From Streptacidiphilus sp. P02-A3a (GTDB taxonomy: Bacteria > Actinomycetota > Actinomycetes > Streptomycetales > Streptomycetaceae), in contig NZ_CP048289.1 in NCBI RefSeq assembly GCF_014084105.1, positions 6,023,922 to 6,087,921 of the forward strand: a stretch of DNA of 64,000 bases. Direction: 5' to 3'. Positions 6,401-32,258 of this stretch are shown here, piece after piece. Position numbers and translations under genes: made by a program. Position 1 is the first letter of the stretch, and each line of letters starts with the position of its first letter. The notes under the pieces were generated by a model. That model saw only the letters and a program-made list of their open reading frames with translations. It had not been told where the DNA came from and did not search any database.

Positions 6401-9400
6401 GGTGTCGGCGTTCGGTGTCAGTGGCACCAACGCGCACGTGATCCTGGAGCAGGCCCCGGCCGTCGACCCGCAGCCGGAACCCGAGCCCTCGGCGGCGCTC
6501 CCCTGGGTGCTCTCCGCCCACTCCCCCGAGGCACTGACCGCGCAGGCGGCGCGCCTCGCCACCACACTCGACCTCGATCCGAGCCTCCGCCCGGAGGACG
6601 TCGGATACGCACTGCTGCACTCGCGGGCGCTGTTGGACGAGCGGGCGGTGATCGTCGCCGAGGAACGGCAGGACTACCTGACCGCCCTGCGCGCCCTGGC
6701 CACCAACGCCCCCGCCCCCGGCCTGACCCGCGGACACGTCCGCCCCACCGGCAAAACAGTCTTCGTCTTCCCCGGACAGGGATCCCAGTGGCCCGCCATG
6801 GCCACCGAACTCCTCACCACCTCACCCGTCTTCACCCACCACATCCAGCAGTGCGCCGACGCCCTCGCCCCGCACACCGACTGGAACCTCCTCGACGTCC
6901 TCCACCAAACCCCGAACGCACCCACCCTGGACCGCGTCGACGTCGTCCAACCCGCCCTATGGGCCGTCATGATCTCCCTCGCCCGCCTGTGGCAACACCA
7001 CGGCATCCACCCCGACGCCGTCATCGGACACAGCCAAGGCGAAATCGCCGCCGCCCACATCGCCGGCGCCCTCACCCTCACCGACTCCGCCCGCATCATC
7101 ACCCTCCGCAGCCAAGCCATCAACACCCTCAGCGGCCACGGCACCATGGCCTCCATCAACCTCCCCACCACCGACCTCGAAAACCGCCTCACCCCCTGGG
7201 GCAACCGCATCTCCATCGCCGCCGTCAACGGACCCGCCACCACCGTCGTCTCCGGCGAAACCCAAGCCGTCACCGAACTCGTCGCCGCAGCCGAAGCCGA
7301 CAACATCCGCGCCCGCCTCATCCCCGTCGACTACGCCTCCCACTCCGCCCAGGTCGAACACATCCAGGACCAGATCCTGCACGACCTCGCCCCCATCACC
7401 CCCCAAACCGCCACCATCCCCCTCCTGTCCACCGTCACCAACACCTGGATCGACACCACCACCCTCGACGCCACCTACTGGTACACCAACCTGCGCCAAA
7501 CCGTCCGACTCCACGAAGCCACCCACACCCTCGCCACCACCGGACACCACACCTACATCGAAATCAGCCCCCACCCCGTCCTCACCACCGCCATCCAAGA
7601 AACCCTCGAAACCACCGACCACCCCAACACCGTCACCGGCACCCTGCGCCGCGACGACGGCGGACTCAACCGCCTGCACACCTCACTCGCCGAAACCTTC
7701 GTCCACGGTGCCCCCATCACCTGGCAGCCCGTAGCCGAGGGCGTCCGGCCCGCGCCGACCAAGCTTCCGACCTACGCGTTCCAGCGGGAGCGCTACTGGA
7801 TCGACCAGGTCCCCGCCGAGACCGGTCCGGTGGGTGGCCAGTCCGCCGTCGACGCCCGGTTCTGGGAGACCGTGCAGCGCGGTGACCTGTCGCAGGTGGC
7901 GGACACGTTGGGTGTCGGTGACGACGCGGTCCGCGAGTCACTGGGAACCGTACTGCCCGCCCTGTCCACCTGGTGGGAACAACGCCAGTCCGCCACCACC
8001 GTCGACGCCTGGCGACACAAAGTCGTCTGGCGAGAACTCCCACAGACCCCACCCACCACCCTCACCGGCACCTGGCTCCTGGTCCTCCCCACCGACCAAC
8101 AAAACCACCCCATCGCCACCGCCACCCAAGAAGCCCTCACCCAAGCAGGCGCCCACACCACCCACCTCCTGATCAACCACACCACCGACCGCACCACCAT
8201 CACCCACCAACTCCAACAACACACCCAACCCCTCACCGGCATCATCTCCCTCCTCGCCCTCGAAAACCGACCCCACCCCAACCACCCCACCCTCCCCTGG
8301 CTCTACGCCACCACCCTCACCCTCACCCAAGCCCTCCAAGACACCACCACCACAGCACCCCTGTGGCTCATCACCCAAACCGCCATCAGCACCCACCCCA
8401 CCGACCCCCTCACCAACCCCACCCACGCACTCCTCTGGGGCCTCGGCACCATCATCGACGTCGAAAACCCCACCCCCTGGGGCGGACTCATCGACCTCCC
8501 CCAACACCCACAACCCCACCACTACAACCAACTCCCCAACCTCCTCAACCAACCCACCACCCACCCCGAACACGAACTCGCCCTCCGCAACACCACCACC
8601 CACACCCGCCGACTAACCCACAACCCCCACCAACCCACCACCAACACCACCCCCTACAAACCCACCGGAACCACCCTCATCACCGGCGGCACCGGCGCCC
8701 TCGGCACCCACCTCGCCCGCTGGCTCGCCCACCAAGGCGCACCCCACCTCCTCCTCATCAGCCGACGCGGACCCCACGCACCCGGCGCCACCCAACTCCA
8801 AACCGAACTCACCAACCTCGGCACCCAAGTCACCATCACCACCGCCGACATCACCAACCGAGACGAACTGGAGGCGGTGCTCGCCGGTATCCCCGAGGAG
8901 TTTCCGCTGACCGGTGTGTTCCACACCGCCGCCGTCCTGGAGGACGCCGTGATCGGCGCACTGACGGTGGATCAGCTGGACCGCGCGGTCAGCGTGAAGG
9001 TGAACGGCGCACTGCACCTCGACGCGTTGACCCGGGACCTGGACCTGTCCGCGTTCGTCCTCTTCTCCTCCGTCGCCGGAGTCTGCGGCGTCGCCGGACA
9101 GGGCAACTACGCCCCCGGCAACGCCTTCCTCGACGCACTCGCCGCCCAACGCCGCACCCAAGGCCTCCCCGCCACCTCCATCGCCTGGGGACACTGGGCA
9201 GGCGGCGGCATCGCCGCACCCGAGATCGAAGAGAAGCTCGGCAGGCAGGGCCTCACCATGCTGCCGCCGGAGCTGGCGGTGTCCGCGCTCGGCCAGGTCC
9301 TGGACGACGACGAGTCGCACCTGATGGTCTGCGACATCGACTGGACGGTCCTCTTCCGCGACCGCGACCACCCGCTCGTGAACGAGCTCCCGGCGGTCCA

Positions 9401-9986
9401 GCGGGCCCGGCGCGCCGCGGCGGCCGCGGCCGGCCCCTCCCGTCCCAGCGCGCCGGACTTCGCCGGCCAGTTGGCCGCGCTCTCCCCGGCCGAGCAGCGG
9501 CGGACGCTGCTGCGCCTGGTCCGTGAGCAGGCGGCGGCGGTGCAGGGGCACGCGTCGGCGGACGCGGTGGAGCCGGGCAAGCGGTTCCGGGACCAGGGCT
9601 TCGACTCGCTCACCGCCGTCGAGTTCCGCAACCGCCTCAACACCGCCACCGGCCTGCGCCTCCCCGCCACCCTCGTCTTCGACCACCCCACCCCCACCGC
9701 CCTCGCCGAACTCCTGCAAGCCGAGTTGGCACCGGTGGCCGAGGTGAGCGTGGACACCGTGCTCGCGGACATCGACCGGCTGGAGTCGACGCTGGGCGCG
9801 CTGGTGGCCGACCGGTCGGAGCGGTCCGCGATGACCGCCCGGCTACAGGAGGTGGTCGCCCGCTGGACGGCCGTTCCGGTCGGTGCGGCCGGTCCCGGCG
9901 GCCCGAGCGTGGCAGAGGAGTTGGACTCCTCGGACTCCGACGACGAGCTGATCGAGCTCATCGGCAAGACCTTCGGCATCTCCTGA
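450..9986 (+). CDS. Type I PKS, two modules: KS-AT-KR-ACP / KS-AT-KR-ACP
   Basis: A 3178-residue bimodular polyketide synthase. Residues 1-33 are an N-terminal coiled-coil docking domain. Module A has KS (Cys207 in DTACSSS, EAHGTGT, KSNIGH), AT (Ser654 in GHSQGE, YASH from residue 754), KR (nucleotide-binding TGGTGALG near 1208, Tyr1349) and ACP (Ser1516). Module B has KS (Cys1748), AT (Ser2195, YASH from 2295), KR (Tyr2887) and ACP (Ser3053), then an acidic docking tail ending GKTFGIS. YASH, GHSQGE and RVDVVQ in both ATs point to methylmalonyl-CoA. Both KRs keep Ser, Tyr and Asn; module A has LDD and module B LED, so B-type hydroxyls are expected. There is no DH or ER. Each module should therefore add an alpha-methyl, beta-hydroxy unit. 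Start is ATG after a GAAGAGG-type site. Confidence 0.97.
1798..3165 (+). repeat. PKS direct repeat copy 1 (KS-AT linker, AT, post-AT linker of module A)
   Basis: These 1368 bases recur at 16721-18088 in module D with the same length, no gaps and only about five single-base differences by eye. The tract runs from the end of the KS to the post-AT LPSYAFQ motif. Such identity between non-adjacent modules points to recent duplication or gene conversion. Confidence 0.93.
3279..4257 (+). repeat. PKS KR direct repeat copy 1 (module A)
   Basis: 979 bases covering the structural and most of the catalytic ketoreductase match 7893-8871 at a constant offset of 4614 with one difference seen (C at 4001, A at 8615). 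The tract is poor in G on the + strand, with runs of ACC, CAC and CCC codons, unlike the flanking KS sequence. Confidence 0.93.
5154..5539 (+). repeat. PKS KS N-terminal direct repeat copy 1 (module B)
   Basis: 386 bases covering the ACP-KS linker end and the first KS third are nearly identical to 15454-15839 in module D (offset 10300). Both tracts begin at a GTCGAGG joint and end at the same GTCTTCGCCGG joint. Confidence 0.9.
7893..8871 (+). repeat. PKS KR direct repeat copy 2 (module B)
   Basis: Partner of 3279-4257. The two copies diverge sharply after GAACTGG, at the segment holding the LDD/LED motif, and become nearly identical again from 9041 (matching 4427) through the active-site Ser and Tyr. 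Confidence 0.93.
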
Positions 9987-10017
9987 CTCCTTCACCTCAC
10001 GAGAGAGGACAAGCAAC

Positions 10018-13000
10018 ATGAGCGACGATCAGATACGACACCTCCTCAAGCGGGTGGCCGCTGAGTTGCACGACACCCAGCAGCGCCTGCACAAGGTGCA
10101 GGAGGACGCGCAGGAGCCGATCGCCATCGTTGGCATGGCCTGCCGGCTGCCCGGCGGTCTGGACACCCCGGAGCTGCTCTGGGAGTTGGTGGCCGCGGGC
10201 GGCGACGCCGTCGGCGGTTTCCCGACCGACCGCGGCTGGGACGTGGAGGGGCTCTACGACCCCGACCCGGACAGCCCCGGGAAGTCCTACACCCGCAACG
10301 GCGCCTTCGTGCGCGGGGTGGCCGACTTCGACGCGGACTTCTTCGGGATCTCGGCGCGCGAGGCCCTGGCCACCGACCCGCAGCACCGGCTGCTGCTGGA
10401 GACCGCGTGGGAGGTCTTCGAGCGGGCGGGGATCGATCCGCTGCCGCTGAAGGGCAGCCGGACCGGTGTGTTCGCCGGGATGAACGGCCAGGACTACGCG
10501 GCCCGGCTGAACCAGGTGCCCAGTTCGGTCGACGGCTACATCGGCAACGGCAACGCCAGCAGCGTCGCCTCCGGCCGGATCGCCTACTCCTTCGGTTTCG
10601 AGGGCCCGGCCGTCACCGTCGACACGGCCTGCTCGGCGTCGCTGGTGGCGCTGCACCTGGCCGCCCAGTCGCTGCGCTCCGGCGAGTCCGACCTGGCGCT
10701 GGCGGGCGGCGTCACCGTGATGGCCTCGCCGCTGGCGTTCCAGGAGTTCTCCCGGCTGCGCGGGCTGGCGGAGGACGGCCGCTGCAAGGCGTTCGCCGCC
10801 GCCGCCGACGGGACCGGCTGGGCCGAGGGCGCCGGGCTGCTGCTGCTGGAGCGGCTGTCCGACGCCCAGCGGCTCGGCCACCCGATCCTCGCCGTGGTCC
10901 GTGGCAGCGCCGTCAACCAGGACGGCGCCTCCAACGGCCTGACCGCGCCCAACGGCCCCTCGCAGCAGCGGGTCATCCGGCAGGCCCTCACCAACGCCCG
11001 ACTCACCCCGGCCGACATCGACGCGGTCGAGGCGCACGGTACCGGCACCACCCTCGGCGACCCGATCGAGGCCCAGGCCCTGATCACCGCCTACGGCCAG
11101 AACCGCCCGGCGGAACGGCCGTTGTGGATCGGCTCGGTCAAGTCGAACATCGCGCACACCCAGGCGGCGGCCGGTGTCGCCGGGGTCATCAAGATGGTCC
11201 AGGCGATCCAGCACGGCCTGCTGCCCAAGACCCTCCACGTCGACCAGCCCTCACCCCACGTCGACTGGACCGAAGGCAACGTACGGATTCTGACGGAGGC
11301 TCAGGAGTGGCCGGAGACCGGCGCCCCGCGCCGGGTCGGCGTCTCGGCCTTCGGCGCGAGCGGCACCAACGCGCACGTGATCCTGGAGCAGGCCCCCGCC
11401 GTCGAGCAGGCGTCCCCCGAGGAGACCGCCGCCGAGCCGTCCCCGGCGCCGGAGGCGCTGCCCTGGCTGGTGTCCGCGCGGACCCCGGCGGCGCTCCGGG
11501 CCCAGGCCGAGCGGCTGATCTCCTTCGTCGAGGCCGGAACCGAGCCGGAGCCCGTTGACGTCGCGCACGCGCTGGTCGGTTCCCGGGCGCTGCTGGAGGA
11601 GCGGGTCGCGGTCGTCGCCCGGGACCGGATCGGGCTGCTCGACGCCCTGGGCGCGGTGGCCAGGGGCGAGTCAGGGCCGCAGCTGGTACGCGCCTCGGCG
11701 GCCACCACCGGTGGCGGCCTGGCCTTCCTCTTCAGCGGCCAGGGCAGCCAACGGCTGGGCATGGGCCGTGAGTTGTACGACAGCTACCCGGTGTTCGCAG
11801 CGGCCTTCGACGCCGTGGCGGACGAGCTGGACCGGCACCTGGCCGGTCATGTCGACCGCACCGTCCGCGAGATCGTCTTCTCCGCGACGGAGGCGGACAG
11901 CGGACAGCTGGACCGGACCGTGTTCACCCAGACCGGACTGTTCGCGGTCGAGGTGGCGCTGTTCCGGCTCTTCGAATCCTGGGGCGTACAGCCCGACTTC
12001 GTCTCCGGCCACTCCATCGGCGAACTGACGGCCGCTCATGTCGCGGACGTGCTCACGCTCCAGGACGCGGCGGCGCTGGTCGCCGCCCGGGCACGGCTGA
12101 TGCAGGCGCTGCCGGACGGCGGCGCGATGGTCGCCGTGCAGGCCACCGAGGCCGAGGTACTGGCCGAGCTGGCGAACCGGGGGCCGCTCGCCGCCCGGGT
12201 CGGCATCGCCGCCGTCAACGGCCCCACCTCCGTGGTGCTCTCCGGTGACGAGGAGCCGGTCATCGATCTGGCCGGGCACTTCGCCGAGCAGGGCCACCGC
12301 ACCCGCAGGCTGCGGGTCAGCCACGCCTTCCACTCGGCGCACATGGAGGGCATGCTCGCCGAGTTCCGCGAGGTGGCCGCCGGACTGTCGTTCGCCGCAC
12401 CGCGGATCCCGGTGGTGTCCAACCTGACCGGTGTCGTGGCCACGGCGGAGGAGCTGGGCAGCGCCGACTACTGGGTCCGGCACGTCCGCGAGCCCGTGCG
12501 GTTCCGGGACGTGGTGGGTGAGTTGGAGTCGGCCGGAGTCACCGCGTTCGTGGAGCTCGGACCGGACGGCGTGCTCACCGCCATGGTGCGGGAGTCGCTG
12601 GGCGAGCGTCCCGAGGGCGAGGGCCCGCTGCTCGTCCCGGCGCTGCGCCGCAACCGGCCGGAGACCGAGACCGTGGTCACCGCCCTGGCCCATATCGCCG
12701 TCAACGGCGGCCGGGTCGACTGGACCGCCTTCCTCGGCGGCCCGCCCGGACACCGGCTGGACCTCCCCACCTACGCCTTCCAGCGGCGCCGCTTCTGGCT
12801 GGACCAGCCGGAGTCGACCGACACGGACGCCAAGGGCCTGGGGCTGACCCCGGCGGCTCACCCGCTGATCGGCGCGGCCGTGGGCCTCGCCGACGCGGGC
12901 GGCGCGCTGTTCACCGGACGCCTGTCGTTGCAGTCGCACCCGTGGCTGGCCGACCACGCGGTCCTCGGCACGGTGCTCGTCCCGGGAACGGCCTTCGTGG

Positions 13001-16000
13001 AACTGGCGATCCGGGCCGGGGACGAACTCGGCGCCGACCTGCTGGACGAACTGGTCATCGAGACACCGCTGATCCTCAACCAGCGCGACGCGGTCCAGCT
13101 CCAGGTCGCCGTGGGCGCTCCGGACAACGCCGGACGGCGCACGGTCACCGTCCACTCCCGGCCCGAGGCCGCGACCGAGGGTGACGCCCGCGACTGGACC
13201 CGGCACGCCAACGGCGTACTCTCCCACGCGGGTTCGACTCCGGAGGCGGCCACGGACAGCCTCGGCGGCAGCTGGCCGCCAGTCGGGGCCACCGAGGTCG
13301 AGCTGGCCGACGTCCGAACCGCTCTGGCCGAGGCCGGACTTGAGTACGGGCCCGCGTTCCTCGGACTGCGCACGGCCTGGCGGCGCGGCGACGAGTACTT
13401 CGCCGACGTCGCCCTCCCCGAGGAGCAGCGGGAGGCCGCCGGACGCTACGGCGTGCACCCGGCGCTGCTGGACGCCGCGCTGCACCTCGCCGCGCTCCAG
13501 GACTCGCCGCAGGCCCGGCACCGGCTGCCGTTCGCCTACCGGGGGGTGCGGCTGCACGCCTCCGGCGCCGCCGCACTGCGGGTGCGGCTGCGGGCCGTCG
13601 GCTCGGAGGAGCTGGTGCTGGACACCGCCGACGGCAGCGGGGCTCCGGTGGTCACCGTCGAGTCCCTGGTCACCCGCCCGGTCTCGGCCGAGCAGCTGCG
13701 CGCGGCGGGCGACGCCACCGCGGACCGGCAGCAGGACTCGCTGTTCCGGCTCGCCTGGACGCCGCTGGCGGGGGCGGACCCGGCACCGGCGGCCGAGTCG
13801 CGTACCTGGGCTGTGATCGGCGCCGAGCCCCAGGCGCTGCTCCCCGGGGCCGAGCAGGTCCAGGCGTTCCCGGACCTCGCCGCACTCGCCGCCGCCCTGG
13901 ACGCGGGTACCCCCGCGCCCGAGCTGCTGCTGGTCGACGCCACGGCTGCCACCGCCGACGGCGCCTCACCGGTGCCCGCCGTGCACGCGGCCACCCACCG
14001 GTGGCTGGAGCTGCTGCGCGGCTGGTCCGCCGACACCCGGCTGGAGTCCACGCTGCTGGTCGTGGCCACCCGAGCGGCGGTCGCGGTCACCCCGGACGAG
14101 TCCCCGGACCTGGTCGCCGCGCCGCTGTGGGGGCTGCTCCGCTCGGCCCAGTCGGAGCACCCCGGCCGGATCCTGCTGGTCGACACCGATGCTGACGTGG
14201 CGTCACTCGTCCTGCTGCCTGGCCTCGTCCACCGTGACGAGCCGCAACTCGCGCTCCGCGCGGGATCGGTGAGCGTGCCGAGGCTGGTCCGCGCCGAGTC
14301 CGCCTCCGACACCGCCGAACTCCCGTGGAACCCCGCCGGAACCGTGCTGGTCACCGGCGGCACCGGAGTCCTCGGCTCACTGCTGGCCCGGCACCTGGTC
14401 TCCCGACACGGTGTCAAGCACCTGCTGCTGACCAGTCGTAGCGGCGCACAGGCCCCGGGAGCGGCCGAGCTGCGGGAGGAACTGACCGCGCTCGGAGTCG
14501 AGTTGACCATCGCCGCCGGAGACGCGGCGGACCGGGACTTCCTCTCCGGGCTGATCGCCGGGATCCCGGCCGAGCAGCCGCTCACAGCCGTGGTGCACAC
14601 CGCGGGTGTGCTCGACGACGGAGTGCTGGCCTCGCTCACCCCGGAGCGGTTCGACACCGTGCTGCGGCCCAAGGCCGACGCGGCCTGGAACCTGCACGAG
14701 CTGACCCGGGATCTGGATCTGGCCGCCTTCGTGCTGTTCTCCTCGGTCTCCGGGGTCCTCGGTGCTCCCGGCCAGTCCAACTACGCCGCCGCCAACACCT
14801 TCCTGGACGCCCTCGCCCAGCACCGCCGCGCCGCCGGACTGCCCGCGCAGTCCCTGGCCTGGGGCCAGTGGGCGCAGGCCAGCGGCATGACCGCGCACCT
14901 CGGCGAGGCCGATCTGGGCCGCGCCGCCCGCTTCGGCATCCGGGCGCTGTCGTCGGCCGAGGGGGTGGACCTGTTCGACGCGGCCCTTCGCCTGGACCGG
15001 GCGGTGCTGGTGCCCGCCCCGCTGGATCTGGCCGCGCTCCGCCGCCAGGCCTCCGCCGAGACCCTGCCGTCGCTGCTGCGCGGACTGGTCAGGCCCGCGC
15101 GCCGGGCCGCCGGAACCACCGCCCAGGGCGGCGGGCACCCGCTGGCGCTGCGCCTGGCCGGTCTGGACGACGCCTCGGCGCGCGATGCGGCGCTGCTGGA
15201 GCTGGTCCGGGCGGAGGTGGCGGTCGTGCTCAGCGCCGACACGGACGCCATCGGCGCGCGGCGCGCGTTCAGCGACCTCGGGCTCGACTCGCTGACCGCG
15301 ATCGAGCTGCGGAACCGGCTCAACACGGCCACCGGGCTGCGCCTCCCGGCCACGCTCACCTTCGACTACCCCACCCCGGCTGACCTCGTCGGCTATCTGC
15401 GCACGGTACTGCTCCCGGCCGAGGCCGACGCCGCGCCGACGGCCTCGGCCGTGGTCGAGGGTGGTTCGTCGGATGAGGCGGTGGCGATCGTGGGGATGGC
15501 GTGCCGCTATCCGGGTGGGGTGCGTTCGCCGGAGGACCTGTGGCGGTTGGTGGCGGACGGTGTGGACGCGGTGTCGGAGTTCCCGACCGACCGTGGCTGG
15601 GACCTGGAGCGGTTGTTCCATCCGGATCCGGACCACGCCGGTACGTCCTACAGCCGCCACGGCGGGTTCCTGGACGACGCGGCCCTGTTCGACGCGGGCT
15701 TCTTCGGGATCTCCCCGCGCGAGGCGCTGGCCACCGACCCGCAGCAGCGACTGCTGCTGGAGACCGCCTGGGAGACCCTGGAGAACGCGGGCATCGACCC
15801 CACCTCCCTGCGCGGCAGCCGCACCGGCGTCTTCGCCGGGGTGATGTACCACGACTACGCGCCACGGCTGCAGGAGGTCCCGGTCGGCCTGGAGGGCCTG
15901 GTCGGCAACGGCAACGCGGGTAGCGTGGCCACCGGTCGGATCGCCTACACGCTGGGCTTCGAGGGCCCGGCGGTGACCGTGGACACCGCCTGCTCCTCGT

Positions 16001-18729
16001 CCCTGGTCGCACTGCACCTGGCCGCCCAGTCGCTGCGCTCCGGCGAGTCCGACCTCGCCCTGGCCGGCGGCGTCACCGTGATGTCCTCGCCCGGGGCGTT
16101 CACCGAGTTCTCCCGGCAGCGCGGCCTGTCCCCCGACGGCCGTTGCAAGGCGTACGCGGGTGCCGCCGACGGCGTCGGCTGGGCCGAGGGCGTGGGCCTG
16201 CTGCTGGTGGAACGGCTGTCCGACGCCCAGCGCCTCGGCCACCCGATCCTCGCCGTGGTCCGTGGCTCCGCCGTCAACCAGGACGGCGCCTCCAACGGCC
16301 TGACCGCGCCGAACGGCCCCTCGCAGCAGCGGGTCATCCGGCAGGCCCTGACCAACGCCCGACTCACCCCGGCCGACATCGACGTGGTCGAGGGACACGG
16401 CACCGGTACCACCCTCGGTGACCCGATCGAGGCCCAGGCCCTGATCGCCACCTACGGCCAGAACCGCCCCGCCGACCGACCGCTGTGGCTCGGCTCACTG
16501 AAGTCCAACATCGGCCACACCCAGGCCGCCGCCGGGGTCGCCGGGGTCATCAAGATGGTCCAGGCGATCCAGCACGGTGTGCTGCCCAAGACCCTCCACG
16601 TCGACCAGCCCTCACCCCACGTCGACTGGACCGAAGGCAGCGTCCAGCTTCTGACGGATACCCAGGACTGGTCGCCTGCCGGTGAGTTGCGTCGCGCTGC
16701 GGTCTCCTCCTTCGGGGTGAGCGGCACCAACGCGCATGTGATCCTGGAGCAGGCCCCGGCCGTCGAGTCGCAGCCCGCGACCGCTCCGGCCACGCCCCTG
16801 CCGTGGGTGCTCTCCGCCCGGACCCCGGACGCGCTGGCAGCCCAGGCGGAACGCCTGCTCACCCTCGCCGAAACCCCGGACGCCCCGCACCCGGCCGACA
16901 TCGCCACCGCACTGCTGCACTCGCGGGCGCTGCTGGACGAGCGGGCGGTGATCGTCGCCGAGGAACCGCAGGACTACCTGACCGCCCTGCGCGCCCTGGC
17001 CACCAACGCCCCCGCCCCCGGCCTGACCCGCGGACACGTCCGCCCCACCGGCAAAACAGTCTTCGTCTTCCCCGGACAGGGATCCCAGTGGCCCGCCATG
17101 GCCACCGAACTCCTCACCACCTCACCCATCTTCACCCACCACATCCAGCAGTGCGCCGACGCCCTCGCCCCGCACACCGACTGGAACCTCCTCGACGTCC
17201 TCCACCAAACCCCGAACACACCCACCCTGGACCGCGTCGACGTCGTCCAACCCGCCCTATGGGCCGTCATGATCTCCCTCGCCCGCCTGTGGCAACACCA
17301 CGGCATCCACCCCGACGCCGTCATCGGACACAGCCAAGGCGAAATCGCCGCCGCCCACATCGCCGGCGCCCTCACCCTCACCGACTCCGCCCGCATCATC
17401 ACCCTCCGCAGCCAAGCCATCAACACCCTCAGCGGCCACGGCACCATGGCCTCCATCAACCTCCCCACCAACCAGGTACAGCAGCGCCTGGCGCCCTGGG
17501 CGGACCGCATCTCCGTCGCCGCCGTCAACGGACCCGCCACGACGATCGTCTCCGGTGAGGTCCAGGCCATCACCGAGCTCGTCAACTCGCTGGAAGCGCA
17601 GGCCATTCGCGTGCGGGTGATCCCCGTCGACTACGCCTCCCACTCCGCCCAGGTCGAACGCATCCAGGACCAGATCCTGCACGACCTCGCCCCCATCACC
17701 CCCCAAACCGCCACCATCCCCCTCCTGTCCACCGTCACCAACACCTGGATCGACACCACCACCCTCGACGCCACCTACTGGTACACCAACCTGCGCCAAA
17801 CCGTCCGACTCCACGAAGCCACCCACACCCTCGCCACCACCGGACACCACACCTACATCGAAATCAGCCCCCACCCCGTCCTCACCACCGCCATCCAAGG
17901 AACACTGGAGGAGATCGACCACCAGGCAACCGTCACCGGCACCCTGCGCCGCGACGAAGGCGGACTCAACCGCCTCCACACCTCACTCGCCGAAACCTTC
18001 GTCCACGGCACCCAGGTCACCTGGCAACCCGAAAACGACGACACCACCCCACGGCAGCACGTTCCCCTCCCCAGCTACGCCTTCCAGCACGAGCACTACT
18101 GGCTGGACAGCGCACCCGTCACCGGCCCGCGTCCCGAGCTGGCCGACGGCGCCCTGGGCGCAGTTGACGAACCGTCAACTCAGGACGCCGACAGACTGCG
18201 GGAGCAGCTGGTGGGGGCCACCGCCGAGGAGCGGGCGGTGCTGCTGCTGAACCTGGTTCTGGCCGAGACCGCGGTCGTCCTCGGGCACAGCTCCCCCACC
18301 GCCGTCGACGCCAACGGCGCGTTCAAGGATCTCGGGCTGAACTCGCTCACCGCCGTGGAGTTGCGCAACCGGCTGCGCGAGGCCTCCGGGCTGGCGCTGT
18401 CGGCGACCCTGGTCTTCGACCACCCGACGCCGGTCGCCATCGCCGACCACCTGGACGCGGAACTCGCGCTCACCGAGGTGTCGGCGCTGCCCTCCGCCTT
18501 CGTGTCGCTCGGCCAGTTGGAGAGCAGGGTCGCGGCGTCCGTCCTGGACGACGCGGAACGGCCCGAGATCGTCGCCCGCCTGCGCGGACTGCTGTCGCAG
18601 CTGGACGCCACCGCCGTCTTTTCGAGCACCGGCGGCAGCGAGAGCGACAGCGGCAACGCGATCGACATCGACGTCGCGACCGACGAAGAGCTCTTCGCGC
18701 TCATGGACAACGACCTGGATTCGCTCTGA
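10018..18729 (+). CDS. Type I PKS, two modules: KS-AT-DH-KR-ACP / KS-AT-ACP
   Basis: A 2903-residue PKS starting 31 bases after the previous gene (GAGAGG before ATG). Module C: KS Cys205 (DTACSAS), AT Ser666 in GHSIGE with HAFH at 769-772 (malonyl-CoA), DH with the HxxxGxxxxP motif from His980 and Asp1152 in [10 protein letters not shown] with LDD and Tyr1589, ACP Ser1758. The KR is B type with Pro five residues before Tyr, which normally pairs with DH to give a trans double bond. Module D: KS Cys1992, AT Ser2439 with YASH from 2539 (methylmalonyl-CoA), then directly ACP Ser2776; no reductive domain, so the beta-ketone should remain. The module D ACP reads LGLNSL, with Asn in place of the usual Asp before Ser. 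The C-terminal docking tail ends DNDLDSL. Confidence 0.97.
15454..15839 (+). repeat. PKS KS N-terminal direct repeat copy 2 (module D)
   Basis: Partner of 5154-5539. Module D is thus a mosaic: its KS front matches module B and its AT matches module A. Confidence 0.9.
16721..18088 (+). repeat. PKS direct repeat copy 2 (module D)
   Basis: Partner of 1798-3165 at a constant offset of 14923 bases. The changes I see include R to P in EERQD, V to I, and E to G in QETLEE. Directly after the repeat, module D passes to its ACP while module A continues into a KR. Confidence 0.93.
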
Positions 18730-18774
18730 TGCGCTCCGACCCGACCCGACCTGCCCCGAAGGAGCCCGCCGGCC

Positions 18775-21700
18775 ATGGCCGATGACGAGAAACTGCGCAC
18801 CTATCTCAAGCGTGCGATCGCCGATGCCCAGCAGTACCAGAAGCGGGTGCGCGAGCTGGAGGCGAGCACCTCGCAGCCGATCGCGATCGTCGCGATGGCC
18901 TGCCGACTGCCCGGCGGCGCGGACTCCCCGGAGAAGCTGTGGCAGCTGGTGGAGGCCGGTGGCGACACCGTGACCGAGTTCCCGGCGGACCGCGGCTGGG
19001 ACATCGAGGAGCTGTTCGACCCGGACCCGGACAGCCCCGGGAAGACCTACACCCGGCACGGCAGCTTCCTGCCCGAGGCCGCCGACTTCGACGCCGAGCT
19101 GTTCGGGATCTCCCGGCGCGAGGCGCTGGCCACCGACCCGCAGCACCGGCTGCTGCTGGAGACCGCGTGGGAGGCGCTGGAGCGGGCCGGGATCGAGCCC
19201 GGCACCCTGCGCGGCAGCAAGACCTCGGTCTTCGCCGGGATCGCGGGCGGCGACTACGCTCCGCGGCACCACGAGGCGCCGGAGGATCTGGAGGGGTACC
19301 TCGGCATCGGCTCGCTGGACAGCGTCGCCTCCGGCCGGATCGCCTACACCTTCGGCTTCGAGGGCCCGGCGGTGACCGTGGACACCGCCTGCTCGTCCTC
19401 CCTGGTCGCGCTGCACCTGGCGGTGCAGTCGCTGCGCTCCGGCGAGTCCGACCTCGCCCTGGCCGGCGGCGCCACCGTGATGTCCACCCCGCAGGGGTTC
19501 ATCGAGTTCTCCCGCCAGCGCGGCATGTCGGTGGACGGTCGCTGCCGCGCCTTCGCCGCCGACGCCGACGGGACCGGCTGGGCCGAGGGCGCCGGACTGC
19601 TGCTGCTGGAGCGGCTGTCCGACGCCCAGCGGCTCGGCCACCCGATCCTCGCGGTGGTCCGCTCCACCGCCGTCAACCAGGACGGCGCGAGCAACGGCCT
19701 GACCGCCCCCAACGGCCCGGCGCAGCAGCGGGTCATCCGGCAGGCGCTGGCCAACGCCCGGTTGAACCCCGCCGACGTCGACGCGGTCGAGGCGCACGGC
19801 ACCGGCACCACCCTCGGCGACCCGATCGAGGCCCAGGCGCTGATCGCCACCTACGGCCAGAACCGGCCCGCCGACCGGCCGCTGTGGCTCGGCTCGCTCA
19901 AGTCCAACATCGGCCACGCCCAGGCGGCGGCCGGGGTGGCCGGGGTGATCAAGACGGTGGAGGCGCTGCGCAACGGCGTGCTGCCGCGGACGCTGCACGT
20001 GGCGGAGCCCACCCCGCACGTGGACTGGTCGGCCGGGACGGTGCAGCTGCTGACCAAGGCCCGGGCCTGGCCGGAGACCGGCCGCCCGCGCCGCGCGGGC
20101 GTGTCCGCCTTCGGTGCCAGCGGCACCAACGTCCACGTGATCCTGGAGCAGGCCCCGGCCGACGCCCCCGATCCGGTCACGCCCGCCGAGACCCCGGCTC
20201 CGGCCGAGGCGGCGCCGACCAGGACCGCGGCCCCCGACCTCCGGCGGCCGCTGCCCTTCGTGCTGTCCGCGCGCACCCCGGCGGCGCTGCGTCGGCAGGC
20301 CGAGCGGCTGACCGCGCGGATCGTCAGCGACCCCGGGCTGCGCCCGGCCGACCTGGCCCACTCGCTGGCGACCTCGCGGGCGCTGCTCTCCGAGCGGGCC
20401 GTGGTGGTCGCCGCCGACCGGGACGCCCTGCTGGCGGGCCTGGCGGCGGTGGCGGCCGACGAGCCCGCGCCGCAGCTGGTCGGCGGCTCGGAGCGGCCCG
20501 GCGGCCTGGCCTTCCTGTTCACCGGTCAGGGCAGCGAGCGCACCGGCATGGGCAGCGAGCTGTACGCCACGCACCCGGCGTTCGCGGCCGCCTTCGACGC
20601 GGCGGTGGCCGAGCTGGACAAGCAGTTGAGCGGGCACGTGGACCGGTCGGTCCGGGACGCCGTGCTGACCGACGGCGGCGACGCGGCGCTGCTGCGGCGC
20701 CCGGTGTACGCCCAACCGGCGCTGTTCGCGGTCGAGGTGGCGCTGTTCCGGCTGTTCGAGTCCTGGGGGGTGCGCCCGGACGTGGTCGCCGGCTACTCGA
20801 TCGGCGAGCTGACGGCGGCACATGTGGCGGGCGTGCTCTCGCTGCCGGACGCGGCGGCCCTGGTCGCCGCCCGGGCCCGGCTGCTGGACCGGCTGCCCGC
20901 CGACGGCGCGATGCTCGCCATCCAGGTCTCCGAGGAGGAGCTGGCCCCGGTGCTGGCCGAGCACGTTGACCAGGTCGGCCTGGCCGCGGTCAACGGCCCG
21001 GAGGCGGTGGTGATCTCCGGCGAGGAGCACCTGGCGCTGTCGATCGCCTGCCGCTTCGAGGCCCTGGGCCGCAGCAGCAGGCGGCTGGAGACGGCGCAGG
21101 CGTTCCACTCCCCGCAGGTGGCGGCGATCGCGGCGGAGTTCCGCGAGGTGGCCGCCGGGCTGACCTTCGCCGCGCCGAGGATCCCGCTGGTCTCCAGCCT
21201 GACCGGGCTCCTGGCCACGGCCGAGGAGCTGGGCGACGCCGACCACTGGGTCCGCCAGGTGCAGGGCACGGTCCGCTTCCACGACGCGCTGCGGCAGCTG
21301 GCCGAGCTCGGCGCCAGTACCTTCCTGGAGCTGGGACCGGACGGGGTGCTCACCGCGCTGGCCCAGGACTCCCTGCCGGAGGTCGCGGACGGCCTGCCGC
21401 CGGTGGTGCTGCCGGTGCTGCGCCGGGGTCGTCCGGAGGCCGACACGGTCGCGGCGGCGCTGGGGCAGGCACGGATCCACGGCCGCGCGGTGGACTGGGA
21501 GGCCGTGCTGTCCGGGCTCCAGCCGCAGCGGGTGGACCTGCCGACCTACGCCTTCGACCGGAGCAGCTACTGGATCACCCCGGGCGCGCCCGTCCGCGGC
21601 GCCCGGCGCGGCTCCGGCCTCGCGGCCAGGACCCGCCCGGCGGCCTCCTCGCTGCGCAGTCGGCTGGCGGCGGTCGCGCCGGAGCAGCGCGAGGCCTTCC

Positions 21701-22881
21701 TGTTGGACGCGGTCCGGGCCGAGGCCGCCTCGGTGCTCGGCACGGTCGCCGACGCGGTCGGCCCGCACCGGCCGTTCGGCGAGCTCGGCCTGGACTCGCT
21801 GACCTCGGTGGAGCTGCGTACCCGGCTGAACCGGGGGATCGGGCTGCTGCTCCCGGCGACGCTGGTGTTCGACCACCCGACCCCGGTCCGGCTGGCCGGG
21901 TACCTGTTGCAGCGGATCGGCGACCTCCCGCAGGAGCTGCCCGCCGACCCGCTCGACGCCGACCAGCAGGACCAGGAGGAGCAGGAGCAGCGGTCCGAGC
22001 GCAATCCCCTGGACGCGCTGGACCGGATCGCCGCGCAGGGGCCGCTGGCCACGCTGTACCAGCAGCTGTGCGCCCAGGGCAGCTACCTGACCGCGTCCGA
22101 GCTGCTGATCGTCGCCTCCCACCTGCGGTCGGAGTTCGACGCCAGGGCGGCGGAGCGGCACACCCTGACGCCGCTCCAGCTGGGCACCGGACCGGCCCGG
22201 ACGAAGATCCTCTGCTTCCCGTCGCTCAGTGCCATCTCCGGCCCGCACGAGTACGCGCGGCTCGGCCACACCCTGCGCACCGAGCGCGACGTCTTCGTCT
22301 TCCCGGCGCCCGGGTTCGGCGACGGCGACCCGCTGCCGGACGGTCTGGAGACCTTCGTCGGGATGCAGGTCGAGGCGGCGCTCAAGGTGGTCGGCGACGA
22401 CCCCTTCGTCATCGTCGGCCGCTCGATGGGCGGTTGCGTGGCGCACGCGGTCGCCGCCGGTCTGGAGGACCGGGGGGTGATCCCGACCGGCCTGGCGCTG
22501 ATCGACACCTACCCGATCGAGGGCCCGCGCGACGAGGGCATCCGGGGCTGGTGGCTGGCCGCCATGATCCAGGGGATGCTCGACCGGATCGAGCGCTACG
22601 AGATGCCCTGGAACGACCACAGCCTCAGCACCATGGGCGGCTACCTGCGGATCTTCGCGGGCTGGGAGCCCAAGCCGCTGGCCGCGCCGACGCTGCTGCT
22701 GCGGGCGCTGGACCCGGTCGAGGGCATGGACCTGGACCCGGCGAGCCCGGTCGACTGGCAGGCCTACTGGCCGCTGGACGTCGAGGAGGCGGACGTCCAC
22801 GGCGACCACTTCTCGGTGCTGGAGGAGGACGCCGAGCTGACCGTGGCGGCCATCCGGGACTGGATCGACCGGCTCGGCTGA
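18775..22881 (+). CDS. Type I PKS terminal module: KS-AT-ACP-TE
   Basis: A 1368-residue last PKS protein. Residues 1-33 form the N-terminal docking coil. KS has Cys206 in DTACSSS. AT has Ser675 in GYSIGE and QAFH ending at His778; the AFHS and AQPALF motifs favour malonyl-CoA, although GYSIG replaces the usual GHSIG. ACP Ser1008 lies in GLDSLT. The C-terminal 270 residues are a thioesterase with Ser1217 in GRSMGG, Asp1244 in LALIDTYP and His1345 in HGDHFS, a complete triad. There is no KR, DH or ER, so the last beta-carbonyl stays as ketone. The TE should release the chain as acid, macrolactone or pyrone; which one cannot be read from sequence. Start ATG follows AAGGAG; 45 bases separate it from the upstream PKS. 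Confidence 0.96.
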
Positions 22882-22955
22882 CCACCCCACCGCGGATCCG
22901 TCGCGGACCCACCCGAACCCCACCCGAACCCCTGACATCCATCCGAGGAGACAGA

Positions 22956-23729
22956 ATGGTGCCACCCGTCGTCGTCGTCACCGGCGCGGCCTCCGGAATC
23001 GGCCGGGCGACCGCCGAGCTCTACGCCGAGCGCGGCTACCGCGTGGTCGCGGTCGACGTGAACGAGTACGGGCTCAAGGAGCTCGCCGCGCGCGACGGCG
23101 AGGCGTTCGCCACGCTCGTCGGCGACGTGTCCAGCGAGGCCGTCAACAACGCCATGGTGCGGCTGGCGCTCCAGCGGTTCGGCCGCCTGGACGCCGCCGT
23201 CCTGAACGCGGGTATCGGCGGCGCCGGGCCGCTGGAGTCGGCCGGGGCGCTGGACCGCTTCGACCGGGTGCTGGCGGTGAACGTGCGCGGCGTGGCGGCG
23301 GGCATCCGGGCGTCGGTCCCGGCGCTGCGGGCGGTCGGCGGCGGCTCCATCGTGGTGACCTCGTCCATCTCCGGGCTGCGCGGCGACCCGGGGGTCTGGG
23401 GCTACAACGCCTCCAAGGCCGCCTCGATCAACCTGGTGCGGGCAGCCGCGCTTGACTATGCGTCAGAGAACATCCGGATCAACGCGATCGCCCCCGGCGG
23501 CGCGATCACCGCGATGACCGCCGGGGTGCTGGCGGACCCGGAGACGGCCGCCGTGCTGACCGCGCGGATCCCGCTGCTGCGCTGGTCGGACGCCCGGGAG
23601 CAGGCCGAGGTGATCTGGTTCCTCACCTCCCCGGCGGCGTCCTTCATCACCGGTGTCACGCTGCCGGTCGACGGCGGGATCATCGCCAGCACCGGCATCC
23701 TGCCGCCGCCGGGCCGCCCCGGCGAATAG
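22956..23729 (+). CDS. Short-chain dehydrogenase/reductase (SDR)
   Basis: A 257-residue classical SDR. It has the TGAASGIG nucleotide-binding motif near the N-terminus, NAG at the end of strand 4, the SS...YNASK catalytic Ser/Tyr/Lys set and a PGGA segment after it. The ATG follows GAGGAG by five bases. It lies 74 bases after the TE-containing PKS on the same strand with no hairpin between, so it is probably co-transcribed with the PKS genes. Expected role: NAD(P)-linked oxidation or reduction of a hydroxyl/keto group on the polyketide or a precursor; the substrate is not predictable from sequence. Confidence 0.9.
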   Translation: MVPPVVVVTGAASGIGRATAELYAERGYRVVAVDVNEYGLKELAARDGEAFATLVGDVSSEAVNNAMVRLALQRFGRLDAAVLNAGIGGAGPLESAGALDRFDRVLAVNVRGVAAGIRASVPALRAVGGGSIVVTSSISGLRGDPGVWGYNASKAASINLVRAAALDYASENIRINAIAPGGAITAMTAGVLADPETAAVLTARIPLLRWSDAREQAEVIWFLTSPAASFITGVTLPVDGGIIASTGILPPPGRPGE

Positions 23730-23798
23730 CCGAGCGCCACCGGCAGACCCATTTTCCCGCCCGGACGACCGCGGCGGGCACTGAAGAGGAGGGCATGA

Positions 23799-24245
23799 AT
23801 GGGGCAGGAAATCGCCGAGGAAAGCAGAACCGAACTCGCCAGGAACAAGGAAGTCGCCCGGCGCTATTTCGAGGAACTCGTCAACGAGCGGCGGCTCGAC
23901 CTCCTGGAGGAGATCATCGCCGAGGACGCGGCCGACGAGACCCGGGTCGGCCCCGGCGGCCGGGGCAGCCGCGAGGACTTCCGCGAGCACGCCGTGTGGC
24001 TCTTCGAGAACGTCGGCGGTGCCCGCACCACCATCACCGACCTGATCGCCGAGGGCGACCGGGTGGTGGTCTTCTGGCGGCTGGAGGGCGTCCAGCTCGG
24101 GGAGTTCTTCGGGGTCCCGGCCACCGGCAGGCCGTTCAGCGGCGCCAGCATCAGCACGCTCACCATCAGGGACGGCAAAGTCGTCCGCTACAACGTCCTG
24201 CCCGACCGCCTCGGCGTGGTCCGGCAGTTGGAGGCAACCCCATGA
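23799..24245 (+). CDS. SnoaL-like (NTF2-fold) polyketide cyclase/ester-cyclase family protein
   Basis: A 148-residue protein with the SnoaL pattern: an N-terminal helix (ARNKEVARRYFEEL), a central helix, and strands ending in FSGASISTLTIRDGKVVRYN. The family includes aldol cyclases of aromatic polyketides, epoxide-opening enzymes and many proteins of unknown activity. An ATG at 23795 is out of frame; the GAGGAGGG site at 23786-23793 fits ATG 23799. It overlaps the next gene by ATGA. Its position after a PKS that should release a reactive diketo chain makes a cyclisation or tailoring role attractive, but this is inference. Confidence 0.85.
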   Translation: MGQEIAEESRTELARNKEVARRYFEELVNERRLDLLEEIIAEDAADETRVGPGGRGSREDFREHAVWLFENVGGARTTITDLIAEGDRVVVFWRLEGVQLGEFFGVPATGRPFSGASISTLTIRDGKVVRYNVLPDRLGVVRQLEATP

Positions 24246-24715
24246 CCCGCAAGCTGCTCGCCACCGACCTCGCCGAGATCCGGCAGACCCTGTCGCTGTT
24301 CTCGCACGTGTTCGACAACGGTGACGCGGACGCCCTGGACCTGGTCTTCACCGAGGACGTCACGGTGCGCAACACCATCGGCCGGGGCTACGAGCTGGTC
24401 GGCATCGAGGCGGCCCGGGACTTCACCCGCCGGTTCGTCGTCGGCACGGTCGACCACCAGACCCTGGACACGGTGGTGCTGGTGGACGAGGACGGCACCG
24501 TCCGCACCCGCAGCCGGTACCTGGGGCTGCTGGCCGACGGCAGCATCCACGGCGGTGACTACTACGACATCCTGGTCCGCACCGAGGCCGGCTGGCGGAT
24601 CAGCTACCGGCTCTCGACGTCCCGGCTGCCGAAGCTGGAGAAGACCGAGCCGGAGCCCGGCCTGCTCGACCCGTGGCGTCCGCGCGCCGGGCAGCCCCCG
24701 GTGACGCTGATCTGA
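24242..24715 (+). CDS. SnoaL-like domain protein (second NTF2-fold protein)
   Basis: A 157-residue protein of the SnoaL_4-like group: IRQTLSLFSHVFDNGDADALDLVFTEDV at the start is written here only as its key features, an initial helix, an FDNGD turn and an FTEDV strand. Later segments, GGDYYDILVRTEAGWRISY, are the usual final strands. Its ATG lies inside the stop of the preceding gene, so the two NTF2-fold proteins are translationally coupled and may form a heteromer. Related proteins act as cyclases, dehydratases or small hydroxylation partners; the activity here is unknown. A strong hairpin follows 21 bases after the stop, probably ending the PKS transcript. Confidence 0.82.
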   Translation: MTRKLLATDLAEIRQTLSLFSHVFDNGDADALDLVFTEDVTVRNTIGRGYELVGIEAARDFTRRFVVGTVDHQTLDTVVLVDEDGTVRTRSRYLGLLADGSIHGGDYYDILVRTEAGWRISYRLSTSRLPKLEKTEPEPGLLDPWRPRAGQPPVTLI

Positions 24716-24736
24716 GCCACCGCCGCCCCACCCGCC

Positions 24737-24772
24737 GACGGCGGGCCCGCGCACCCGCGCGGGCCCGCCGTC
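24737..24772 (+). terminator. Strong hairpin terminator after the SnoaL pair
   Basis: A perfect 16-bp inverted repeat (arms 24737-24752 and 24757-24772) with the 4-base loop ACCC. There is no clear T-run, as is common in actinomycetes. It separates the PKS/tailoring genes from the ABC transporter operon. Confidence 0.82.
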
Positions 24773-24951
24773 GTCATGATCAGGGGCTGGCTAAGGGTCC
24801 GGTAGGGGTTACCCGGGTCCGGGGCTGCTGCTAATTTTTCGACAGGACCAGGGCGCCGGACGGCAATTCGCCACGCGCCCCGGAATTCACCGGCAACACC
24901 CTCCCCGTTCCCCGAAATTCCCCAGCACATTTCTCACGACGGAGCACGCGC

Positions 24952-26616
24952 ATGCCCATATCCCTGTCCAGAAAATCCCGAGTGGCAATCGGCGCGGCGG
25001 GTGCTCTGCTTCTCCTGGTCGGCTGCTCCTCCGGTGGCAGCGGCGGCAGCACCGCCGCCGCCGTGGTCGGGAAGCCGGTGTCCGGCGGGACGCTGAACTT
25101 CGCCGTCGACACCGAGCCGACCTCCTGGGACATCCACGTCAGCCCGCAGGACATCACCGCCGAGATCCAGCGCGAGGTCTTCGACTCGCTGGTCTCCGAG
25201 GACGCCTCGGGCAACTTCCACCCGTGGCTGGCGACCTCCTGGACGGTCGCGCCCAACCTGGAGAGCTACACCTTCCACCTGCGCCACGACGTGAAGTTCA
25301 GCGACGGCACGCCGTTCAACGCAGCCGCGGTGAAGGCGAACTTCGACCACATCGTGGCCAAGTCGACCAAGTCGCAGTACGCGTCCAGCCTGCTCGGCCC
25401 GTACACCGGCACCGAGGTGATCGACCCGTACACGGTGAAGGTCACCTTCTCCAAGCCGTTCGCGCCGTTCCTCCAGGCCGCCAGCACCACCTACCTGGGC
25501 TTCTACTCCCCCAAGGTGCTTGCCGCCGACGCGAGTTCGCTCGGTGGCGGCGGCCCGGTGGACGTCGGCACCGGCCCCTTCATCTTCAGCAGCTACACCA
25601 AGGGCCAGCAGGCGGTGTTCACCCGCAACCCGGACTACGACTGGGGCCCGGCGACCGCCAAGCACACCGGTCCGGCCTACCTGGACAAGCTGGTGGTCCG
25701 CTTCCTGCCGGACAGCTCGGTCCGCCTGGGCGCGCTGACGAGTGGTCAGATCCAGGTGGCCAAGGCCGTTCCGAACCAGAGCGTGGCCACCGTCAAGGAC
25801 GACTCCGCACTGAAGATCATCACCAAGGACGCCCCCGGCGGCAACTACAACCTGTGGCTCAACGCCTCGCTGGCCCCGTTGAACGACCAGCGGGTGCGCG
25901 AGGCCGTGCAGCGCGGGATCAACATCACCCAGGACGTCAAGACCGTCGAGTTCGGCCAGTTCGACCGGGCCTGGAGCCCGATCAGCCCGACCACTCCGGA
26001 CTATGACGCCTCGTTGGAGAACAGCTGGCCCTACAGCCCGACCCTGGCCAACCAGTTGCTGGACCAGGCCGGCTGGACCGCACGCGACTCGGCCGGCTAC
26101 CGCACCAAGGACGGCAAGCGGCTCGTCATCAACTGGCCGCAGGTGGCCGGCAACACCACCCGCGAGGGCCGGGACGTCCTCGGCCAGGCGATCCAGGCCG
26201 ACCTGCAGAAGATCGGCATCCAGGTGCTGCGCCCCACCCTCGACATCGGCACCTACATCACCGAGGCGTACGGCGGCAAGGTGGACGTGCTGGACTCCAG
26301 CTGGGCCCGGTTCGAGCCGGACGTGCTCTGGCTGTTCTTCAACAGCGCCAGCGCGCCCGCCGAGGGCGGCCAGAACGCCACCTTCCTCAGCGACCCGCAG
26401 CTCGACCAGTGGACCAACCAGGCGCGTACCACGCTCGACCCGACCGTCCGCAAGCAGGACTACGACCAGACCCAGGAGCGCGCGATCAACCTGGCCACGG
26501 TCGTCCCGATCTACACCCCGGCCTCCATCGTCGGTGAGTCCACCCAGGTCCAGGGCCTGACCTTCGACGCCGACACCTGGCTGACCTTCTACGACACCTG
26601 GCTGGCCGGGAAGTGA
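24952..26616 (+). CDS. ABC transporter substrate-binding lipoprotein, family 5 (peptide/opine/nickel type)
   Basis: A 554-residue extracellular solute-binding protein of the SBP_bac_5 family. The N-terminus has a basic start, a hydrophobic stretch and the lipobox LVGC with Cys25, so it should be a membrane-anchored lipoprotein. The mature part has the family signatures GGTLNFAVDTEPTSWD and YTFHLRHDVKFSDGTPFNA, about 500 residues in all, the normal size. It heads a four-gene transporter operon; its stop overlaps the GTG of the first permease. Family members bind peptides, nickel chelates or opines; the ligand here is unknown. The 236-base gap upstream holds a terminator and an AT-richer patch near 24833, a plausible promoter site. 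Confidence 0.92.
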   Translation: MPISLSRKSRVAIGAAGALLLLVGCSSGGSGGSTAAAVVGKPVSGGTLNFAVDTEPTSWDIHVSPQDITAEIQREVFDSLVSEDASGNFHPWLATSWTVAPNLESYTFHLRHDVKFSDGTPFNAAAVKANFDHIVAKSTKSQYASSLLGPYTGTEVIDPYTVKVTFSKPFAPFLQAASTTYLGFYSPKVLAADASSLGGGGPVDVGTGPFIFSSYTKGQQAVFTRNPDYDWGPATAKHTGPAYLDKLVVRFLPDSSVRLGALTSGQIQVAKAVPNQSVATVKDDSALKIITKDAPGGNYNLWLNASLAPLNDQRVREAVQRGINITQDVKTVEFGQFDRAWSPISPTTPDYDASLENSWPYSPTLANQLLDQAGWTARDSAGYRTKDGKRLVINWPQVAGNTTREGRDVLGQAIQADLQKIGIQVLRPTLDIGTYITEAYGGKVDVLDSSWARFEPDVLWLFFNSASAPAEGGQNATFLSDPQLDQWTNQARTTLDPTVRKQDYDQTQERAINLATVVPIYTPASIVGESTQVQGLTFDADTWLTFYDTWLAGK

Positions 26617-32002: not shown

Positions 32003-32258
32003 GGGGGTTCTCCCTCTGGCAGTGCTGGTTCGGGACGCCGTTACGGCCCAGGGCCCAGGGACGCGGCCCGGTGCGCGGATCACGCGGCTCCGGGTGGCGG
32101 ACCCAGCCTGCCTGACGATGCATGTCCATGACAACCCTCGGAGCGAACCGTTCCGGGGAGATTCCTGAGAGTATCCCGAGAGTCCGTTTGAGTCCGCTCC
32201 CCCGCGAACTACCAGGTGTTTTGGGCGGAGTTGTGGTGATATCCGCCCGCTCCGCGGG

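Follow-up and report, generated by a model that had tools for sequence, protein, structure and literature searches.

The question raised by this locus is what a short-chain dehydrogenase/reductase (SDR) and two SnoaL-like proteins do directly behind the last gene of a modular polyketide synthase (PKS) in Streptacidiphilus sp. P02-A3a. The stretch analyzed, referred to as the window, comprises 64,000 nucleotides of contig NZ_CP048289.1 (assembly GCF_014084105.1, positions 6,023,922 to 6,087,921, forward strand). The classical SDR gene (22956–23729, + strand) starts 74 bases past the PKS stop and is followed by the genes for a SnoaL-family protein of the NTF2 fold, SnoaL1 (23799–24245, +; PF07366, 97.2 bits, cut-off 28.4), and a second NTF2-fold protein, SnoaL_4 (24242–24715, +; PF13577, 55.8 bits, cut-off 24), with a 4-base ATGA overlap between the two. 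The initial annotation recognized this arrangement correctly and proposed that the SnoaL proteins work as a coupled pair steering cyclization of a 3,5-diketo chain end. Comparison with relatives points elsewhere: the same genes mostly accompany PKS lines without the double ketone, so the SDR and SnoaL genes probably act on another, shared part of the molecule, and we assign a probability of roughly 0.48 to their being a tailoring or processing cassette that acts on a shared hydroxy-enone, C5–C9, and not a device for the diketo end.

The PKS was read with Pfam and with domain profiles built from the window's own domain copies. Module C, encoded together with module D at 10018–18729 (+), has the order ketosynthase (KS)-acyltransferase (AT, malonyl)-dehydratase (DH)-ketoreductase (KR)-acyl carrier protein (ACP); its DH (12853–13707, +) keeps the catalytic His and Asp and its KR (14323–14889, +) the LDD, Ser, and Tyr motifs, as expected of a module that installs a conjugated double bond. 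Module D is KS-AT(methylmalonyl)-ACP, and module E, encoded with the thioesterase (TE) at 18775–22881 (+), is KS-AT(malonyl)-ACP-TE; both lack KR, DH, and enoylreductase (ER) domains. The gaps between AT and ACP domain matches measure 78 residues in module D (AT-to-ACP region 17062–18453, +) and 72 in module E, too short for a KR or DH, so a hidden reductive domain, which the initial annotation had named as a threat to its prediction, was looked for and ruled out by linker length. AT specificity, predicted from the YASH/HAFH motifs, reads malonyl in C and E and methylmalonyl in D. Modules A and B (450–9986, +), each KS-AT(methylmalonyl)-KR-ACP, are the predicted source of the C11 and C9 hydroxyls, and a gene that begins upstream of the window (−9139 to 373 in window numbering) carries a KSQ loading module with a methylmalonyl AT and a malonyl DH-ER-KR module. 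With this gene, which supplies the full-cluster reading that had been called for, the PKS is complete, with six extension modules. Read collinearly, the propionate-started line would make 9,11-dihydroxy-4,8,10-trimethyl-3,5-dioxopentadec-6-enoyl-ACP; the 3,5-diketo-6-ene end first proposed is thus the straightforward reading, and nothing in cis reduces it. At the DNA level modules A, B, and D (window 654–5107, 5280–9718, and 15242–18116) are near copies, A and B sharing 88.2% identity over 4.5 kb and both sharing 89.6–91.6% with D over 2.5–2.8 kb; some portions of these regions also show strong GC and AT skew. The similarity would reflect a methylmalonyl KS-AT region that was recently duplicated or homogenized by gene conversion.

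Relatives were gathered in two sets. A SnoaL_4 search of 199 genomes, the window's own included, gave matches in 59 at E up to 0.001, and 12 other genomes held a match of at least 43% identity over most of the protein; the stretches around these 12 were compared, along with three weaker loci (L039–L041) whose examined stretches contained no PKS, SDR, or SnoaL1 match. The named-genome set consists of 39 loci found by a SnoaL1 profile; a SnoaL_4 search of the named genomes gave no matches, and plasmid searches with TE, SDR, SnoaL, and SnoaL_4 gave no match of at least 60% protein identity. In the first set, six genomes (class 1: G003, G013, G074, G009, G092, and G172) show the order TE, SDR, SnoaL1, SnoaL_4, importer, with two genes in between in G172, and four (class 2: G040, G016, G041, and G047) have a TE followed by two SnoaL_4 genes and no adjacent SDR or SnoaL1; of the remaining two, G152 carries the SDR-SnoaL1-SnoaL_4 block and importer with no TE adjoining, and G131 carries SnoaL1-SnoaL_4 with no PKS within the piece examined. 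The SDR/SnoaL set recurs beside related PKS lines in Streptomycetaceae, Streptosporangiaceae, Nocardiaceae, and Frankiaceae. An intact SDR lies near SnoaL1 in 37 of the 39 named loci (absent in L071, broken in L098), and all four importer genes are within the piece in 29; of the ten loci without the full importer, L086, L090, and L099 are on short contigs, and L071, L082, L097, and L098 are not.

What these PKS lines have in common is not the 3-ketone. Eighteen lines, the window's included, could be read whole. The whole-line and named-locus counts are not independent, since 11 of the 18 lines also belong to the 39 named loci. The fragmented Frankia QA3 line and the partial lines of G041, G047, G092, and G152 were left out, and AT motifs were unreadable in a few modules. 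All 18 end in the series KR-only module, DH-KR module, KR-less module, TE module, preceded by between zero (Nonomuraea, Nocardia, Streptosporangium, and Sphaerisporangium) and two (window, G040, G016, and G172) extra modules. The last module is DH-KR in 15 and KR-less in three (window, G040, and G016), and a last module with DH-KR leaves no 3-ketone. By collinearity the predicted common unit is therefore the C9 hydroxyl, the C6=C7 enone, and the C5 ketone, with the 3-ketone as the exception. The named loci agree: the reductive region of the last module is visible in 21 and is DH-KR in 20 (in broken frames in L098), the other being L077, in which no KR or DH was recognized despite 335 residues between AT and ACP, and the penultimate module is KR-less in 15 of the 16 in which it is visible, the exception being the DH-KR module of L078, the QA3 locus. 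The SDR and SnoaL genes thus sit beside lines without a 3-ketone in 15 of 18 whole lines and 20 of 21 visible named loci, which argues against a pair dedicated to the diketo end. It is likewise unlikely that the SDR is a patch for the missing KR of module E; it also accompanies lines with their own last-module KR.

The KR-less variants, including the window, show the terminal oxidation state changing while the accessory genes stay. The last module would have lost its KR in the window and a few relatives, giving the same product class with a β-diketone; in G040, G016, and the partial G041 line the terminal DH is kept with its His and Asp, whereas the last module of the window is without a DH. 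The second SnoaL_4 of class 2 is sister to the window SnoaL_4 (support 97/96), while the SDR and SnoaL1 of the window are of the class 1 type, and the window resembles a mosaic of both classes. The class 2 TEs stand apart (100/100), and the window TE falls outside them, weakly with Frankia class 1 TEs (89/88 and 90/2); given this weak grouping and the longest end branch of 40 (0.74), its placement is unsure.

Nor are the two SnoaL-like proteins an obligate pair. SnoaL_4 adjoins SnoaL1 in 24 of the 39 named loci, with a gene overlap in nine of those 24, and class 2 has its second SnoaL_4 in place of such a couple. Among the 15 genomes without an adjacent SnoaL_4, the 12 that were searched, as draft genomes (L067, L090, and L097 fell outside this test), contained no close copy elsewhere, the best match scoring 86.6 bits vs. 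193–223 bits in eight known carriers; SnoaL_4 is dispensable. Two NTF2-fold genes occur in 13 of the 20 named loci with a DH-KR last module, and SnoaL_4 is missing from the other seven. In Frankia sp. AgB1.9 (L101/L102), two tandem SnoaL_4 genes (L101, 10770–11921) lie in a piece without PKS, and the genome also holds a class 1 type cluster.

SnoaL1 has the fold of the aromatic polyketide cyclases without their catalytic residues. Its predicted model (pLDDT 95.7) was compared with solved structures (Foldseek was also used) and matched 4lgq (Z 19.8), the aldol cyclases SnoaL and AknH (PDB 1sjw and 2f98; Z 19.4 each, rmsd 2.8 and 2.5, 133 residues aligned each; PF07366), IdmH (Z 17.7), and SnoaL2 (Z 16.6). 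At the sequence level it scored 35.3 bits against the NCBIfam SnoaL/DnrD methyl ester cyclase model, below the cut-off of 200. According to the available passages of the IdmH study (PMC6830212), SnoaL requires Asp121, His107, and His119 among others. SnoaL1 has Val133, Ser119, and Tyr131 at these positions in all 39 aligned sequences (the window and 38 of the 39 named loci, the split L100 being excluded), as mapped through IdmH Thr131, Asn117, and His129 and the residues named in those passages, the direct SnoaL alignment being known by range only (14–144 to 2–132). This replacement leaves a SnoaL-kind aldol cyclase role for SnoaL1 unsupported and counts against a pair dedicated to the diketo end. 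SnoaL and AknH serve aromatic PKSs, and the window PKS is modular. His64, Trp93, Asp136, and Arg137 are also present in 39 of 39.

Parallels also come from other modular PKS pathways, and the description of such an enzyme as unusual there was too strong. IdmH of the indanomycin pathway (PDB 6hnn) aligns with SnoaL1 over residues 26–144 (rmsd 2.7, 134 aligned) and, in the available passages of PMC6830212, is an NTF2-fold, SnoaL-like, ring-forming enzyme that also lacks the SnoaL acid-base pair; no tetraene substrate is predicted for the window. SalBIII of the salinomycin pathway (PDB 5cxo; Z 14.2, rmsd 2.7, 124 aligned) is an NTF2-fold protein of pyran ring formation according to its PDB title, although it ranks only 47th among the structural matches of SnoaL1. 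A polyether route with a MonB/Lsd19 epoxide cyclase was rejected, since no flavin epoxidase gene was found among the Pfam-scanned genes (from the PKS as far as window position 32.1 kb, plus four genes upstream).

The SnoaL_4 model (pLDDT 91.4) has the dehydratase-like proteins LinA, scytalone dehydratase, ActVI-ORFA, and BaiE among its neighbors (Z 14.9–13.7), with LinA-type2 at Z 14.9 (rmsd 2.7, 128 aligned) and scytalone dehydratase at Z 14.6 (rmsd 2.5, 129 aligned); identities are 9–18%, and the fold is common to many NTF2-like proteins. The substrate of BaiE is a δ-hydroxy-enone, and its resemblance to the shared C5–C9 unit is a lead that may bear on the substrate of SnoaL_4. Asp25 and His72 of SnoaL_4 are invariant in 25 of 25 aligned sequences and correspond approximately in residue number to the Asp25/His73 catalytic dyad of LinA (available passages of PMC3507683).

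Taken together, these features suggest a route in which the TE would release the chain as an acid or lactone and the cassette would work on the common unit. In this low-confidence scheme an NAD-type SDR may oxidize the C9 carbinol, SnoaL1, devoid of the usual acid-base residues, may template ring closure across C5–C9, and SnoaL_4, with its Asp-His pair of the LinA kind, may remove a proton or water. Nazarov, Diels-Alder, and oxa-Michael cyclizations, derived from the geometry of the chain, were considered as well and set aside. An Asp after strand β2 of an SDR goes with NAD(H) rather than NADPH, and Asp34 at this place, invariant in 8 of 8 aligned SDRs, suggests NAD(H) use. In Streptosporangium saharense (L095) and Planotetraspora (L100), the gene immediately behind the TE gene encodes an additional SDR whose sequence is close to that of the cassette enzyme.

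Several observations weigh against a cassette for the shared unit. A lactone closed by the TE on the C9 hydroxyl, which would be compatible with the resemblance of this TE to macrolactone TEs, would leave no free C9 carbinol for the SDR to oxidize. SnoaL_4 is absent beside Nocardia and Streptosporangium lines that are built like the Nonomuraea lines having it, and is thus not needed for the shared step, and unrelated NTF2-like proteins match its model with Z scores similar to or above those of the dehydratases. The fragmented QA3 line breaks the module pattern. No PKS domain was found in the piece at L067, L070, L071, L089, L090, and L097, and all of these except L071 are SDR-SnoaL1 loci (the L090 piece is only 4 kb). 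Two NTF2-fold genes accompany every one of the five KR-less ends seen (window, G040, G016, G041, and L077), an association that gives the earlier view of the pair some room. Finally, no product of the window cluster or its relatives is known from the openly licensed literature searched.

The best-surviving alternative is a macrolide end, in which the TE would cyclize the chain to a diketo-enone lactone of 10 (C9-OH) or 12 (C11-OH) members, leaving only decoration to the SDR/SnoaL set; we regard this as doubtful, though it deserves serious consideration. The TE domain (22201–22866, +; GRSMG motif) has as its closest solved sequences the FluC, DEBS, and Pik TEs (142 to about 110 bits), with the hydrolytic tautomycetin TE weaker at 80 bits, and the C9 hydroxyl predicted in all 18 whole lines would fit a constant ring. 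Ring closure is, however, not predictable from TE similarity, and the window TE sits on a long branch. Ten-membered macrolides are known from Saccharothrix (available passages of PMC8005632), but the tie to the saccharothriolides is at most one of resemblance, and the passages contain no gene cluster and structural detail too scant for comparison.

Quite unlikely, in our judgment, is that the SDR is a trans-acting KR for the C5 ketone, with an NTF2-fold protein isomerizing the neighboring double bond to yield a δ-lactone (in the window, a β-keto-δ-lactone). The nearly constant KR-less penultimate module and the usual presence of a nearby SDR would fit such a role, and the closest types for the SDR are butanediol dehydrogenase and levodione reductase, with scores under the curated cut-off; ketosteroid isomerase also belongs to the NTF2 fold. 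The invariant Asp34 points the other way, to NAD(H) and not NADPH, and the four class 2 genomes have no SDR beside the TE, where it was looked for, even though three of them have the same KR-less module.

About equally improbable is that the SDR and SnoaL1 belong to the importer and process or detoxify a re-imported product, in signal uptake or self-resistance, outside biosynthesis altogether. The frequency of the importer would fit, as would the 12 Streptosporangiaceae and Nocardiaceae loci without SnoaL_4 in which importer, SDR, and SnoaL1 are ordered on one strand with the PKS opposite where seen (11 of 12), and the 4-base overlap of the ATPase and SDR genes, as called, in Nocardia aurea. 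At L067 (Streptomyces hokutonensis, 724–10405), SDR-SnoaL1 adjoins ABC transporter, luciferase-like monooxygenase, TauD dioxygenase, and MFS-like genes with no PKS across the 20-kb piece, and may serve uptake or breakdown there. In the window and its Streptomycetaceae relatives, however, the SDR and SnoaL genes come directly after the TE, and the window has a hairpin between them and the importer.

Least likely of all is the working pair that steers the 3,5-diketo end toward a 4-hydroxy-2-pyrone, hemiketal, or diketo lactone: both proteins are modeled as NTF2 folds near known cyclases or dehydratases and all five KR-less ends have two such genes, one of them in class 2 sister to the window SnoaL_4, but the same genes stand beside lines without a 3-ketone, SnoaL_4 is dispensable, the SnoaL aldol residues are absent, and β-keto-δ-lactones and pyrones can form at a TE without a cyclase.

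These comparisons shift the question from a single unusual PKS end to a family of orphan clusters that recurs with the same core, and this family, with its frequent importer, is a more interesting object than the diketo end. A wider reading, speculative and on balance improbable, is of a widespread family of small modular PKSs (from pentaketide up to heptaketide, across Streptomycetaceae through Nocardiaceae and Frankiaceae) with an NAD-type SDR, a remodeled NTF2 protein, and usually an importer, in which the δ-hydroxy-enone would be turned into a ring by chemistry undescribed for modular PKSs and the product re-imported as a signal, the window variant adding a metal-binding β-diketone. The shortest members (Nonomuraea, Streptosporangium, and Nocardia, with loading and four modules) are of a size that allows expression and feeding, and with them the role of the SDR and SnoaL proteins becomes directly testable.

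The one print record found in the openly licensed literature searched, which gave no product for this family, is pks-7 of Herbidospora cretacea NBRC 15474, an orphan cluster described by Komaki and co-workers (PMC4599437) and predicted, in the available passages, to make a hexaketide with two double bonds and one hydroxyl. Its last genes encode KS/AT/DH/KR/ACP-KS/ATm/ACP (2820 aa) and KS/AT/DH/KR/ACP-TE (2064 aa), and our locus L072 likewise has a 2064-aa TE protein, followed by SDR, SnoaL1, and SnoaL_4; the two are equated on the basis of strain, domain order, and length, and the scaffold is numbered s20 in the paper and 18 in the record. According to the same passages pks-7 has six modules including loading and a reduced last module, whereas the window PKS is longer by one extension module and its last module has neither KR nor DH.

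In the window, a 17-bp hairpin (24736–24773, +) lies between SnoaL_4 and the importer, with a stability well beyond that of shuffled sequences (z −5.0; none of 200 shuffles equaled it), and is a possible transcript end without a T run; a T-run-based terminator scan found nothing at this position. The importer consists of an extracellular solute-binding protein of family 5 (24952–26616, +), two ABC permeases (26613–27554 and 27559–28428, both +), and a fused double ABC ATPase of the peptide/nickel type (28428–30353, +). The closest solved sequence to the binding protein is a NikA, but it reaches only 216.8 bits against the nickel_nikA equivalog cut-off of 393. Upstream of the PKS are genes for a LuxR-type regulator, an MFS transporter, and a TetR regulator. 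Metallophosphoesterase and 4′-phosphopantetheinyl transferase genes, identified by Pfam on the L035 pair, flank clusters of both classes (L032, L035, L038, L064, and L065, and in class 2 L029–L031) and have no match among the window genes. About 16–17 kb upstream of the window, a gene on the minus strand (L005, 2782–4128) encodes a 449-residue protein with a stand-alone condensation domain (Pfam 70.7 bits), and a gene of the peptidase A4 family, a type associated with acid-loving organisms and in keeping with Streptacidiphilus, lies at 31187–32134 on the minus strand of the window.

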